NCBI GenBank assembly: GCA_947476425.1
Contig: CANJQJ010000011.1
Location: 1-64,000 of the forward strand
DNA: 64,000 bases
Reading direction: 5' to 3'
Source of the DNA: Sphingomonadaceae bacterium
GTDB taxonomy: Bacteria > Pseudomonadota > Alphaproteobacteria > Sphingomonadales > Sphingomonadaceae
Part shown: piece after piece, positions 30,357 through 57,976 of the stretch
How positions within the stretch are numbered: the first letter of the stretch is position 1
Layout of the letters: each line of letters begins with the position of its first letter
Program-made: the position numbers and the translations under genes
The notes under the pieces: generated by a model
The model's database searches: none
What the model was told of the DNA's origin: nothing
What the model saw: only the letters and a program-made list of their open reading frames with translations

Positions 30357-31850
30357 CTAGCCGGCCGGGAAGCCGATCGCCTTGATTTCGGTGAACTCGT
30401 TATAGCCTTCCTCGCCCCACTCGCGGCCAAGGCCGCTGCGCTTGTAGCCGCCGAACGGCATGTCGGGATGGAAGCCGCCAGTGCCGCCGTTGATCGCTAT
30501 CTGGCCAGTGCGCATCTTGAGCGCCATCTCGAAGGCAGTCGCCTTGTCCTGCGAGATGATGCCGCCGCCAAGGCCATAGTCGCTGGCATTGGCGATCTTG
30601 ATCGCTTCGGCATCGGTGTCGAAGCCGATGACCGCCGCGATCGGCCCGAAGACTTCGCGCTGCCCAAGATGGCTGTCGTTCGAAACGCCGTCGAAGATCG
30701 TGACGTCGAAATAGAAGCCCTTGTCGAGCCCCTTGGTACGCGAGCCACCTGCGACCAGCCTTGCCCCGTCTTCGAGCGCACGGCGGCAGAAATCCTCGGT
30801 GCGGGTGCGCGCGGCTTCGCGGATCAGCGGACCCATGAAGGTGGCAGGATCATAGGGATCGCCAACCTTGATCTGCCCGGCCGCGCCTGCCAGCGCCTCG
30901 ACGAAGGCAGGACGGATCTTGTTGTCGACGAGGATGCGCGTGGTGAGCGAGCAGCCCTGGCCGGCCTGGAACATGGAACCGAACAGAGCGACCGCGACGG
31001 CCAGCTCGAGATCGGCATCATGGCGGATGATGACCGGGGATTTTCCGCCCAGTTCGAGCTGGACCTTCTTAAGGGTCGGCGAAGCCTGCGCCATCACCAT
31101 CGCGCCGACGGCATCCGAGCCGGTGAAGCTCACCATGTCGATGGCAGGATCGGCGCTGAGCATCTGGCCGACTTCGAGCCCGCCGGTAACGACGTTGAAC
31201 ACGCCTGGCGGCAGGTCGAGCTCGGCCATCATCTCGGCGATCAGCATCGACTGGAGCGGCGTGAAGGGCGAGGGCTTGAGTACCACGCTGTTGCCCGCCG
31301 CGATTGCCGGGAAAGCCTTGACCAGCCCAAGCAGGAAGCCTGAGTTATAGGGCGTGATCGCCGATACGACGCCGACCGGATCACGAGTCACGACGGCGCT
31401 GCCGAACGCTCGTCCGCCGCCGCCGAGGCGATCCGCGATCATCGGTGCGAGCGGCTTGAGCGGATCCTTGCGCGCGACCTCGATCGTGCGTTCCAGCTGG
31501 CCGAACAGCAGGCCGAGCTGCATGTCGCAGTTGAGGCGGGTGAAGCCCATTTCGAGCTGCATGAGCCCGACCGCTTCCTCCCTGCGCGCCTTGACGAGAT
31601 CGAACAGCTTTTGCATGCGATCGGCCCGCACGTTGCGATCTTCCTCGCGCCAGGGGCCATCGTCGAAAGCGCGTCGAGCGGCCGCGATCGCGCGGGCGGT
31701 ATCCTCAGGAGAGCCGACCGGTGCGCTGCCGACAGCTTCCTCGGTGGCTGGATTGAGGACATCTTCCTGCCCGGCCGAAGGCGTCACCCAGGCGCCATCG
31801 ATGAACAGCTTGTCGTAATGCGACTTCAAATTGGGGGTGGGCGCGTTCAC
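30357..31850 (-). CDS. NAD(P)-dependent aldehyde dehydrogenase
   Basis: The 497-residue ALDH-superfamily enzyme has a catalytic Cys300 in FQAGQGCS, general base Glu266 in QLELGGKSPVI, cofactor-binding ITPYNSGFLLGLVKAFPAIAAGN and SFTGSDAVG, and the late EVFGPIAAVI. It oxidises an aldehyde to a carboxylic acid. It is divergent from a RepA-type gene. Upstream, on its coding strand, TCCCAACATTCC appears about 100 bases from the start and recurs before the sulfotransferase gene at 33017. Confidence 0.92.
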   Translation of the reverse strand: MNAPTPNLKSHYDKLFIDGAWVTPSAGQEDVLNPATEEAVGSAPVGSPEDTARAIAAARRAFDDGPWREEDRNVRADRMQKLFDLVKARREEAVGLMQLEMGFTRLNCDMQLGLLFGQLERTIEVARKDPLKPLAPMIADRLGGGGRAFGSAVVTRDPVGVVSAITPYNSGFLLGLVKAFPAIAAGNSVVLKPSPFTPLQSMLIAEMMAELDLPPGVFNVVTGGLEVGQMLSADPAIDMVSFTGSDAVGAMVMAQASPTLKKVQLELGGKSPVIIRHDADLELAVAVALFGSMFQAGQGCSLTTRILVDNKIRPAFVEALAGAAGQIKVGDPYDPATFMGPLIREAARTRTEDFCRRALEDGARLVAGGSRTKGLDKGFYFDVTIFDGVSNDSHLGQREVFGPIAAVIGFDTDAEAIKIANASDYGLGGGIISQDKATAFEMALKMRTGQIAINGGTGGFHPDMPFGGYKRSGLGREWGEEGYNEFTEIKAIGFPAG

Positions 31851-31948
31851 TGGCTCTCTCCAAAGTCTTTTTTCGGGTTAATTAGTGCTGGCGTGCAGAC
31901 CGGCTTCCGCTATCCTCGATGTCATATATCCGGCCTGCCAGGCTAGGT

Positions 31949-31960
31949 GGAATGTTGGGA
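31949..31960. promoter_or_regulatory. 12-bp flanking repeat, copy 1
   Basis: GGAATGTTGGGA here is exactly inverted at 32937-32948. Reading toward the aldehyde dehydrogenase the motif is TCCCAACATTCC, then five bases, then the palindrome GCCTGGCAGGC. The second copy has the same order before the sulfotransferase gene. It could be a shared activator site or a repeat belonging to the RepA gene. Confidence 0.45.
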
Positions 31961-31977
31961 TACGGCCAGCCATTGCG

Positions 31978-32934
31978 ATGAACGTCATCGATAATCCAGT
32001 ACGTTCGGGGCTGTTTGATGCACATGATGCATTGCGTCGGCTGGGCGCGGCCGAGGCGCGCCGGACGGCCGGCTCCACGCTTGAGCGGATCTGCATCGAT
32101 GCGGCCGCGGCGGTCATCGAAGCGCCGGTGGATCCATCGCGCCTGATCTATGGCAGCATTGCACTCACCTACATGCCTTACCGGGATCCGGGCCCCGAAT
32201 ATCCGTTATGGAATGCGCGGTGCGGCCATACCAATTTCACGCTGACGCCCGGTCCCTCGGGCTATCCCTTCGGCGCGAAGGCGCGCGTGCTGCTGCTGCA
32301 CCTTGTCGACCGCGCAATCCGCTCGGGCTCTTCGGTTGCCGAGATCGGCCCGTCGATGCGGAGCTGGCTGCAATCGATGGGCATAGCGCTCGGCGGGATG
32401 ACCTACAGCCATATCGGCGAGCAAAGCCGTCGCATCGCGGGCTGCGGGCTCCGCATCGTGCCCGCCAGTGACCAAAGCGAAGCGCTCGCTTTGCTTGCCA
32501 GGGAAGTGAATGGATTCATCGAGTCCTTCGAACTCGATTCCGAAGACGGCAAGACGGAAGTCGTATCCCCGGAAGGAGTCGTCTTCGCGCCGACATTCCC
32601 CAAGCGCACGCGGCTCGATCCGGGTTTCTTCGACTATGTCTCTGCCAGCCGGGTCGCGCTCGACCGCGTGGCGATCCAGCAGATCAGCGACAATGGCTGG
32701 GCGCTCGATCTCTACATATGGCTCGCCACCGAACTGCCCGCGCTCGCCGCGCCACTGCAAATTTCCTGGCCGATGTTCTTCGAAGGCTTCGGCGACCAGG
32801 GACCACGCCACCGGATCAAGGCCAAGGCGCTGAGCACGCTGCCGCTGGTCGCTGCCGTATATCCCGATGCGCGGATCCGGGTCGATCAGGACGGCCTGTT
32901 GCTTCTCCCGAGTCCACCAGCGATGTTTGCCTGA
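31978..32934 (+). CDS. RepA-type plasmid replication initiator
   Basis: The 318-residue product matches plasmid-encoded RepA (PF04796-type) proteins: GSIALTYMPYRDPG with a following NFTLTPGPSGYPFGAKARVLLLHLVDRAIRSGS, SMRSWLQSMGI and a second winged-helix-like end VALDRVAIQQIS...LDLYIWLATELPALAAPLQISW...YPDARIRVDQDGLLLLPSPP. Such proteins open plasmid origins. No parA/parB, iteron array or AT-rich origin is seen nearby, and both flanks are catabolic genes. It may mark an integrated plasmid, a secondary replicon, or a gene reused as a regulator. ATG 31978 fits the family N-terminus. Confidence 0.8.
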   Translation: MNVIDNPVRSGLFDAHDALRRLGAAEARRTAGSTLERICIDAAAAVIEAPVDPSRLIYGSIALTYMPYRDPGPEYPLWNARCGHTNFTLTPGPSGYPFGAKARVLLLHLVDRAIRSGSSVAEIGPSMRSWLQSMGIALGGMTYSHIGEQSRRIAGCGLRIVPASDQSEALALLAREVNGFIESFELDSEDGKTEVVSPEGVVFAPTFPKRTRLDPGFFDYVSASRVALDRVAIQQISDNGWALDLYIWLATELPALAAPLQISWPMFFEGFGDQGPRHRIKAKALSTLPLVAAVYPDARIRVDQDGLLLLPSPPAMFA

Positions 32935-32936
32935 CC

Positions 32937-32948
32937 TCCCAACATTCC
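32937..32948. promoter_or_regulatory. 12-bp flanking repeat, copy 2
   Basis: TCCCAACATTCC starts two bases after the repA stop and is followed by CTGTG and the palindrome GCGCATGCGC (32954-32963), about 70 bases before the sulfotransferase start. It is the exact inverse of 31949-31960. It may be part of the sulfotransferase/P450 promoter. Confidence 0.45.
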
Positions 32949-33016
32949 CTGTGGCGCATGCGCAGTGGAGGGTGGCAGAAGGGCGTTTGAAAAATCATGC
33001 CCAAGGAGAGGCACAT

Positions 33017-34177
33017 ATGGCTACCACAAACCCCACCCGAACCTATCCCGATGCCGATACCCTGCTCGATCAATATGCACTTCCGGATTATCTCCGCCAG
33101 GGCGTCCGCAAGGGGCTGGTGCCGCTGCTCGCTGCGCTTGAGAAGGAAACCGGCCTGAACGCCAATGGTCGCGCCCGCGCACTTGGCAATATCCATGATG
33201 ACCTGCGCCGCCTGAAGGCGATCGCGGACGATCGTGCGCGCTTCCCCGAAATCGCCGACGTCGAGATCAAGCAGCCGATGTTCATCCTCGGCCTGCCGCG
33301 TTGCGGGACCAGCCTGCTTCACGCGCTGATGGGAGCCGATCCGCAGATCCGCACGCCGCTGATGTGGGAAATCGCCGAACCGTCGCCGCCACCCGAAGCG
33401 GCCACTTTCGAGACCGACCAGCGCATCACCAATTTCGATTCCTACATGGAGCGCGAATTCGGTGGAAAGCTGATCGAGGTGATGAAGGGTCATCCGATCG
33501 GCGCGCTGATCCCGCAGGAGTGCGGATCGTTCATGACGACCTCGTTCCACAGCTCGAACCCGGTGATGATGAATCGAATCCCCGATTTCTACCAATGGTT
33601 CCTCGGCGCGGACGTCACCTTCCGCTACGAAGTCCACAAGATGTGGCTCCAGCATCTCAGCTGGCATAATCCGCGCAAGCATTGGGTGCTCAAGATCCAG
33701 GAGCATATGTACAGCGTGGGCGCGTTGCTTTCGGTTTATCCCGACGCGATCTTCGTCCAGCCGCACCGCGATCCGACCACGGTGATCGCCTCGATCTCGC
33801 AGTTGATCAACGTCATCCGCACGCCGGCCTACGATCATCAGGACCTTAATGCGCTTGGTCGCGAGATGCTGCATCTCTGGAACGACGGCCAGGATCGCAT
33901 CATGGCGTATCGCAAGTCGCATCCTGACCTGCCGATCTATGATATGCGCTACAAGGATCTCGTGGCGGATCCGGTGGCCGCGGTTCGGGGCATATACGAG
34001 CATTTCGGCTGGGAGTTCACCCCGGCATCCGAGCTAGGCATCCGCACCTGGCTCCAGGAAAATCCCGCCGGCAAGCATGGCGAACGCCGCTATGCGCTCG
34101 AGGATTTCGGCCTGTCCGAGGACGATGTCCGCAAGGTTTACGGCGAATATATCCAGACTTACCGGGATTTCATCTAA
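33017..34177 (+). CDS. sulfotransferase family protein
   Basis: The 386-residue PAPS-dependent sulfotransferase-fold protein has the P-loop-like G92-LPRCGTS-99 after MFILG and the 3'-phosphate site HRDPTTVIASISQL. It shares EIAEPSPPPEAATF-like features with the protein at 17565 (FPSPPPEEATYTTDPRI). ATG 33017 is preceded by AAGGAGAGG, which decides against a longer frame. It is 10 bases upstream of a P450 gene, so a hydroxylated product could be sulfated, or the enzyme might act in reverse or by another chemistry. Substrate unknown. Confidence 0.88.
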   Translation: MATTNPTRTYPDADTLLDQYALPDYLRQGVRKGLVPLLAALEKETGLNANGRARALGNIHDDLRRLKAIADDRARFPEIADVEIKQPMFILGLPRCGTSLLHALMGADPQIRTPLMWEIAEPSPPPEAATFETDQRITNFDSYMEREFGGKLIEVMKGHPIGALIPQECGSFMTTSFHSSNPVMMNRIPDFYQWFLGADVTFRYEVHKMWLQHLSWHNPRKHWVLKIQEHMYSVGALLSVYPDAIFVQPHRDPTTVIASISQLINVIRTPAYDHQDLNALGREMLHLWNDGQDRIMAYRKSHPDLPIYDMRYKDLVADPVAAVRGIYEHFGWEFTPASELGIRTWLQENPAGKHGERRYALEDFGLSEDDVRKVYGEYIQTYRDFI

Positions 34178-57034: not shown

Positions 57035-57841
57035 TCAAGCGGCCCGCGGGAGCGCCTTGAGGATCACCAGCTGGCGGCGGCGTGACTGGCGGGCGAGGTC
57101 GCCCAGGTCATGTCCGCTGACGAGAAGGCACTTGCCGGCCTTCGGGGTCATGCGGACGTGGGTGACTTCGGGGTGGCCGAAGCGGCCGGTGTTGCCCGCG
57201 TCGAGCAGTTCCATCACCTTGAGGTTGACCTCGCCGACCTTGAGCGACTGGCCGACCAGAGAATCGACATCCGTGGGATCAGTGGCGAGGAAGGCTGCGA
57301 TCTCGTGGAAGGCAGCGCTTACCGCATCGGCCTCGGAGCCAAGCACGCGCGCATGCTCGGCATAGGCTGCGCAGCCCTTGAGGCCGTAGAGGATCAGCGC
57401 GCGAAGGCCGTTCACGGTCGGGCCGTCGCGATCAAGGAGCTTCTGGATGCCGGCCTTGGGTGCTGATGCAAGCAGGTCTTCGCGCGTGACACCGGGCTCC
57501 CACACCGCCGGTTGCGGCAGGTTCGACAGATCGGCACCGGCGGCTTCCGCGAGATTTGCAGCCCTGGCGCGGATCTCGAGCGCATCGGCGATCAGGTCGA
57601 GGAATCGGCCTTCGTCGAAATTGACGTTGGTGAGGGTGGTGAACCATGCGTTGGGAACGAATGCATCGACCTCTGCGTCGCGTGCGCCCTTCTGGGCGGC
57701 GCGGTGCGCGAAGGTCGAAACGCCGAGCATGACGCGGAGCAACACGTCCTGAAGGTCGGCGACGTCATCGGTCTTGCCGCAGGACCCGATTTTTACCGAG
57801 CAGCCGCCTTTGTTGCTTTGCTCGCACTGGATACAGAACAT
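57035..57841 (-). pseudogene. hcp: hybrid cluster protein, N-terminal half only
   Basis: The 268-residue product matches the start of hydroxylamine reductase/Hcp, normally about 550 residues: MFCIQCEQSNKGGCSVKIGSCGK carries the first Fe-S Cys set (C3, C6, C14, C21), then DVADLQDVLLRVMLGVSTFAHRA, NVNFDEGRFLDLI and VTHVRMTPKAGKCLLVSGHDLGDL. After the GHDL His, the first hybrid-cluster ligand, the frame continues as unrelated LARQSRRRQLVILKALPRAA and stops. The Cys/Glu/Lys ligands of the second half are absent. Promoter sites look intact. Probably non-functional. Confidence 0.85.
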
Positions 57842-57860
57842 CAGCCTCTCCCGCTGTTTT

Positions 57861-57883
57861 AAGATGTAACTGGGCTGCATCTT
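57861..57883 (-). promoter_or_regulatory. NsrR-type operator of hcp
   Basis: AAGATGTA-N7-TGCATCTT is an 8+7+8 inverted repeat, with 7 of 8 arm positions paired, matching the known NsrR pattern AAGATGYA-N7-TRCATCTT. It lies 20 bases upstream of the hcp ATG, where NsrR usually represses hcp until NO disrupts its Fe-S cluster. Confidence 0.8.
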
Positions 57884-57905
57884 AAGGCGGGAGTGATCAT
57901 TGTAT

Positions 57906-57919
57906 TTGACGTGAATCAA
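57906..57919 (-). promoter_or_regulatory. FNR/FixK-type box of hcp
   Basis: TTGAC-GTGA-ATCAA differs by one base from the consensus TTGAT-N4-ATCAA. If this FNR-class site is centred at about -41.5, the transcription start would fall near 57871, inside the NsrR operator, which is the expected activator-repressor arrangement. Confidence 0.75.
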
Positions 57920-57951
57920 AAAGCGCCGCCCGGGGGGATGGGCGGCGCTTT
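57920..57951 (-). terminator. rho-independent terminator of the DUF2189 gene
   Basis: Arms AAAGCGCCGCCC (57920-57931) and GGGCGGCGCTTT (57940-57951) make a perfect 12-bp stem with an 8-base loop. On the minus strand it is followed by T residues and ends the DUF2189 transcript just before the hcp control region. Confidence 0.8.
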
Positions 57952-57976
57952 CGGACACGATATCGATTGTGCGATA

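Follow-up and report, generated by a model that had tools for sequence, protein, structure and literature searches.

A plasmid-type replication initiator gene, repA, lies among catabolic genes in the 64,000-nucleotide stretch of Sphingomonadaceae DNA analysed here (the window), bracketed by two exact copies of a 12-mer in inverted orientation. In the interpretation that we prefer, and to which we give an even chance, its product is a former initiator that was captured in the chromosome, has lost its origin, retains two binding sites of its own and is likely to be autoregulatory.

An initiator gene among catabolic genes

The gene (31978..32934, +) encodes an orphan replication-initiator-type protein of the RepA_C family (PF04796), 318 aa in length, identified by a profile match, an AlphaFold model and fold comparison. 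Residues 97-257 match the PF04796 profile with an E value of 2.1e-9 and 38.3 bits against a curated cut-off of 26, and the ORF is intact, which bears out the original prediction that a RepA of this type is situated between aldehyde dehydrogenase and sulfotransferase/P450 genes. This is the only PF04796 match in the source genome, and neither NCBIfam nor PHROGs holds a family for the protein. The aldehyde dehydrogenase gene (PF00171; 30357..31850, −) is divergent from repA; on the other side, the first gene past the right 12-mer encodes a sulfotransferase (Sulfotransfer_3, PF13469; 33017..34177, +) and adjoins a cytochrome P450 gene (PF00067; 34188..35420, +). Paralogues of the sulfotransferase are found in the same genome on contigs C52 (75%) and C3 (58%); at the C52 locus (L084), which has no RepA, the sulfotransferase is paired with a P450 paralogue (50% identical).

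The repA frame is fully open, as a random frame of equal length and composition would be with a probability of 1e-4 to 3e-3, and its codon-position composition is gene-like (GC3 0.75). The open frame is nevertheless not proof of selection in the chromosome, because the divergence of the protein described below may predate its arrival there and have arisen on an unsampled plasmid. A possible leader ORF of nine codons (31952..31981, +), read from the sequence, starts within the left 12-mer and ends in a TGA overlapping the repA ATG (ATGA), and could be translationally coupled to repA. No σ70-type promoters were found in 31800-33100.

A sulfotransferase match at E ≤1e-60 was obtained in 15 other genomes, of which seven were examined, one of them as a 5.2-kb contig. 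In these seven and on a Croceicoccus megaplasmid the sulfotransferase gene is accompanied by varying sets of DUF1214, aldehyde dehydrogenase, SDR or P450 genes. RepA is absent from all ten cluster loci compared (the seven genomes, the megaplasmid and the paralogous loci on C52 and C3), and the idea that it regularly belongs to the catabolic cluster was rejected. None of the 12 annotated plasmid loci examined has the same neighbours around its RepA homologue, and these loci therefore provide no case of the second refuting condition set with the original prediction, a homologue in such surroundings without the repeat.

Divergence of the protein

The best relatives of RepA come from Azospirillum and other Rhodospirillales, at about 29-37% identity in the best rows; those found within the family to which the host belongs are less similar (27-32% in matches covering approximately at least 200 residues). 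The latter come from 19 other genomes in a family sample of 397; an order sample of 396 contains 15 other genomes with a RepA match, 13 of them from the host's own family. No closer relative was detected in the family (397), class (385) or order (396) samples, in which the other matches to more than half of RepA are at most 37% identical, nor by a peptide scan of genome contigs and viral contigs; a search of phages returned one match, at 23.8%.

A tree of 44 proteins places RepA among the Rhodospirillales type with support of 90/74, below the usual threshold, and within a wider group of 16 with support of 98/97. Its end branch in this tree is 3.39, against a median of 0.35, and in two other trees 4.46 against 0.48 and 8.69 against 0.18. 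Compared with 38 near homologues, RepA is changed at 22 of 65 near-invariant columns (next highest protein 7, median 0), and with 20 homologues at 15 of 55 (next highest 8), both figures being inflated by the selection of near homologues for mutual likeness; with a wider set of homologues the excess is smaller, at 9 of 34 columns against 8 for the next protein. One of the altered residues is R252, an arginine in all 43 other RepA proteins and a glutamate in this one (R252E).

No solved structure was found for RepA by sequence. The AlphaFold model is confident (mean pLDDT 85.6), and the tandem winged-helix fold that it predicts matches domains 2-3 of RctB (5tbf, Z 12.5) and RepE54 in its complex with iteron DNA (1rep, Z 10.9) by VIA-align. 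The initiators compared, RctB from the second chromosome of Vibrio cholerae and RepE from the F plasmid, share this predicted fold with RepA at only 9-12% identity, and they are working initiators with iteron arrays.

The closest known systems are plasmids of the Rhodospirillales whose RepA proteins, like that of the window, belong to PF04796, among them Azospirillum argentinense p6 (35% identity) and a 53.7-kb plasmid of Rhodospirillum rubrum (31%). These plasmids resemble the window in having no parAB among the neighbouring genes listed in an incomplete gene table, and in having repA flanked on either side by iteron-type sites; in the R. rubrum plasmid and many others one site lies at or just past the repA stop codon, as it does here. 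The differences are that the Rhodospirillales replicons are plasmids with several direct upstream iterons spaced at 22/33 bp, whereas in the window this array is gone and chromosomal markers are present, and that the RepA of the window is far more diverged than theirs.

Candidate sites at the two ends of repA

Iterons in homologous RepA_C loci were sought as repeated words in the flanks of repA, with the window left out. The 109 loci were reduced to 45 that are non-redundant at 80% identity, 41 of which have a clear iteron family (score at least 11); the remaining four (L046, L097, L172 and L187) score below 11. Each such locus has one iteron, with copies upstream of repA. Iterons are spaced at 20-23 bp in 36 of the 41 loci and at 31-34 bp in 31, a TGGACTCT-like core is present in 32, and the copy nearest the start codon is inverted in 36. 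In 22 of the 41 loci a further copy begins between about −11 and +20 relative to the repA stop codon; control windows, taken inside genes or well downstream, contain one in 36 of 2273 cases. Iteron copies at the stop codon recur among RepA_C replicons, and we know of no role stated for them. Putative 17-bp iterons of PromA plasmids, reported in PMC9499019, begin like the iterons of loci L042 and L046, a likeness of iteron sequence alone that says nothing of PF04796 membership for the PromA RepA; the origin of one such plasmid, pMOL98, has been mapped to its iterons according to work cited in that paper.

The original prediction of an exact 12-bp inverted repeat around the gene is correct. The left arm, GGAATGTTGGGA at 31949..31960 (+), is a proposed RepA site recognised by exact matching and by an iteron matrix; it extends to TGGAATGTTGGGA when read from 31948, occupies −29..−18 relative to repA, ends 17 nt 5' of the gene and is 98 nt from the start side of the divergent aldehyde dehydrogenase gene. 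The right arm, the exact inverse at 32937..32948 (−), is proposed as a post-stop RepA site on the basis of the exact match, the positions of sites in the family and the matrix; it occupies +3..+14 from the repA stop codon, 68 nt ahead of the sulfotransferase start. Within the window these two arms are the only matches with no or one mismatch, and five others have two mismatches each. Both arms stand where iteron-type copies of the family stand, one before the start of repA and one at its stop. Three plasmid loci of Azospirillum (L061, L093 and L094) hold a TGGAATGTTGTCG copy that has the same first ten bases as the left 12-mer and is identical to the left site over TGGAATGTTG, and a start at +3 past the stop codon, as in the right arm, also occurs in L037, L043, L052 and L100.

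How readily such a pair could arise was estimated by sampling one base in three across the window and eight other loci. An exact 12-mer shared by the sequence upstream and an approximately 30-nt post-stop window is rare: with 60 nt upstream, 60 of 57,700 test positions have one, rising to 101 of 57,577 with 100 nt and to 518 of 56,530 with 450 nt; the inverted pair itself was chosen by eye, after the fact, out of the whole 64-kb window. Inverted repeats are locally common, 18 pairs of at least 10 nt being present in a 3-kb region, most of them imperfect. Terminal repeats of a transposon or insertion sequence were rejected as an explanation: the only gene found inside is repA, with no transposase, and there is no target-site duplication, as the bases outside the arms (AGGCTAGGT and CTGTGGCGC) do not repeat each other.

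The two arms were scored with iteron matrices that were all built without them, ranks being given among 127,976 window positions. With a first matrix from 13 seed groups the left arm ranks 36 and the right 119, and in the flanks of repA they are first and second; with a second matrix, in which the register of one locus was changed, the ranks are 13 and 100, and 1 and 3 in the flanks. The pair score under this second matrix is reached by 100 of 20,000 permuted 12-mers and by 56 of 20,000 window 12-mers, and a match at 31537 outscores the right arm. A broader matrix of 32 loci is less favourable: the ranks are 78 and 296, the pair score is reached by 286 of 20,000 permuted and 237 of 20,000 window 12-mers, and the best score near the stop codon is unremarkable, being equalled by 677 of 5000 random windows. 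With it the left arm is narrowly first in the flanks (5.28 against 5.22) and the right arm falls outside the top six. The runner-up at 5.22, an iteron-like match at 31857-31869 (−), was left uncounted as a site; it overlaps the ribosome-binding region of the gene for aldehyde dehydrogenase. Also to be set against our reading is the “+” orientation of the left arm, unlike the inverted start-proximal copy of most homologues. Taken together, position and sequence are best explained by reading the pair as RepA sites, short of certainty, and binding of RepA to both flanks is plausible because the 12-mers resemble the family iterons and occupy family site positions.

Distribution of the 12-mer in the genome and the family

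One refuting condition set with the original prediction, a 12-mer abundant elsewhere, failed. Four exact copies are present in the source genome, against 56 in the 396 other genomes of the family sample, six of which have two copies and none more. One of the two additional copies (L002 and L005 for those on C3 and C37) is at C3:118587-118598, at the start of the 58% sulfotransferase paralogue and divergent from an SDR-GMC pair. It has 15 bases in common with the left site, and an ATG within it could be the start of the paralogue, in which case the copy would be partly coding. The other, at C37:9322-9333, lies between a GntR/FCD regulator and an 869-aa ORF, a putative TonB-dependent receptor. 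Both copies were called non-coding and lie between divergent gene starts in catabolic-type loci. The same crude caller, based on codon usage and trained on genes of the window, classed 37 of the 56 copies elsewhere as coding and 19 as non-coding; of the non-coding ones, three (L214, L234 and L242) have divergent gene starts on their two sides. The longer TGGAATGTTGGGAT is present at two of the 56 (L245 and L256). The excess of copies and their placement, examined after the fact, are suggestive and short of proof.

A conserved operator of sulfotransferase genes was considered and ruled out. Within two mismatches, 17 sulfotransferase loci of other genomes hold only two matches more than 1 kb from the gene (both in L066) and one inside the gene (L078), so the 12-mer is not such a conserved element; no match within two mismatches lies near the C52 paralogue in the 4.2-kb locus L080.

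Chromosomal markers and the absent array

The window belongs to contig C11, of 65,424 bp, in a 2.81-Mb draft of 88 contigs. At 54.5-56.8 kb on this contig ilvA adjoins bpt, and the two genes are adjacent in all seven other genomes checked, six of them single-contig, and chromosomal in these relatives. From this pair we infer, within the draft assembly, that C11 is chromosomal, an answer in favour of a chromosome to the question that the original prediction had raised. A second ilvA-like gene, without bpt, is found on contig C13; this gene (C13:46916-48139, L111) contains two in-frame TGA codons and is possibly a pseudogene.

No repeat family is found upstream of repA: one scan gave a score at the level of shuffled sequence, and another a score of 8, where 41 of the 45 homologous loci score at least 11. 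The direct-iteron pattern, GGAATGTTG followed by GGANTNTTG within 5-35 nt, is absent from the whole genome, a search that would miss an array of more altered copies; matches with two mismatches number 159 in the genome and were inspected among the matches listed, up to contig C20. The original statement that the gene has no iterons therefore stands for the array and fails for the two 12-mers, which themselves look like RepA sites. With chromosomal neighbours, no overlap of the contig ends of at least 15 bases and no array found, a current plasmid was rejected. The idea that RepA is the initiator of the replicon carrying the window is not supported, given the chromosomal gene pair and the array that the searches failed to find. 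That of an integrated-plasmid scar is supported as an account of where the gene came from, given the foreign RepA lineage, the chromosomal markers of the contig, the absence of RepA from the compared clusters and the loss of the array.

The left end of the window (approximately 1-133) is an IS630-like remnant and an ORF at 1207-2082 matches only the C-terminal part of DUF3987, both signs of mobile DNA 30 kb from repA; the match of an ORF at 57035-57958 to the Prismane profile is limited to positions 1-220 of 513, and this ORF looks like a truncated hybrid-cluster protein.

Interpretation

Iteron initiators of the RepE/pPS10 type use one binding sequence in two roles, activating the origin and, at an inverted start-proximal copy, repressing their own gene, and in iteron plasmid initiators autorepression commonly doubles with initiation. 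We propose that a foreign RepA_C initiator gene, like those of Rhodospirillales plasmids, was captured in the chromosome and would then have lost its origin, leaving the gene and two candidate sites of its own. The left site would lie in a promoter region shared by the aldehyde dehydrogenase gene and repA, and the right one ahead of the sulfotransferase-P450 pair. RepA, with the predicted tandem winged-helix fold of an iteron binder, would most likely bind both; once bound, it would repress its own transcription and, by position, may affect the two flanking promoters. Loss of the array would leave the autorepressor function of the initiator. Since initiators commonly autorepress, one that loses its origin is already a transcription factor with a defined site, and because sites lie in both neighbouring intergenic regions, binding would have a direct regulatory effect on the locality.

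We infer from the sequences that RepA would bind the 12-mer and that gene regulation would result from this binding. RepA is in our view an ex-initiator without an origin, probably autoregulatory and possibly a local or regulon regulator. As for the earlier suggestion that it has been reused as a local regulator acting on both flanks, binding is plausible, given iteron-like sites in family positions, and the regulatory role is putative. A more ambitious version, in which the initiator has become the transcription regulator of a dispersed catabolic regulon, with iteron-type operators at its own gene, at the flanking promoters and at the divergent pairs on C3 and C37, and with its origin and conserved initiator residues lost, is tentative and seems to us rather unlikely.

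A serious rival, which we nevertheless hold to be on the unlikely side, is that repA and the two leftover sites are an inactive, decaying fragment of an integrated plasmid. The missing array, the 22 of 65 changed near-invariant columns with R252E among them, and the failure of all three taxonomic samples to yield a closer relative are what such a passive relic would lead one to expect; the fully open frame and its low chance probability, the gene-like GC3, the persisting identity of the two 12-mers and the confidently predicted fold argue against it.

Quite improbable, in our estimate, is that the 12-mer is the operator of another catabolic transcription factor, such as the GntR/FCD regulator on C37, with RepA a bystander. 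It would account for the 12-mer standing between divergent genes at three places (the left site on C11, C3 and C37), one of them adjoining that regulator, and at a second sulfotransferase gene. It is opposed by the 17 sulfotransferase loci in which the 12-mer is not conserved and by the C52 paralogue that also lacks it, by the finding that the 12-mer is commonest in the single genome of 397 with a RepA of the window type, and by its resemblance to RepA_C iterons and its post-stop place.

A working initiator, with the window on a chromid or large plasmid or with an integrated origin that still fires, is very unlikely. An intact RepA_C protein with iteron-like sites would suit it, and a Nitrospirillum chromosome 1 record (L170) does contain a RepA_C gene preceded by seven copies of an iteron; here, by contrast, there is no upstream array, nor one in the genome by the single pattern searched, the contig carries the ilvA-bpt pair and lacks an end overlap of at least 15 bases, and the arginine of 43 of 43 other RepA proteins is a glutamate. 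That the exact repeat is a coincidence is hardly credible: the 18 local pairs, imperfect ones included, and the choice by eye from 64 kb speak for it, whereas position and sequence both follow the family rule and the 12-mer count is the highest of 397 genomes.

Comparison with other initiators and significance

Chromosomal RepA_C genes are already known: the Salmonella genomic island SGI1, like the window, has a chromosome-resident RepA_C gene. SGI1 is described in PMC7826253 as a mobilizable island that replicates with a helper plasmid; its repA has a translationally coupled leader protein, and its working oriV, with four 16-bp direct repeats, lies downstream of the repA stop codon. The repA of the window differs in that no array was found beside it. 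In single-chromosome strains of Vibrio cholerae, according to PMC6284228, the main chromosome contains an initiation region of plasmid type, and one strain of two has this region silenced; there the complete origin is kept, which is not so in the window. Among the matches listed, the open-access literature contains no RepA_C initiator reused as a chromosomal regulator and no description of an origin-less RepA_C gene with paired sites beside promoters.

The iteron copy at the stop codon of RepA_C replicons is a by-product of this analysis and is amenable to mini-replicon work. A chromosomal ex-initiator with its sites in place, if this is what RepA is, would be a direct and testable case of the step from initiator to regulator.
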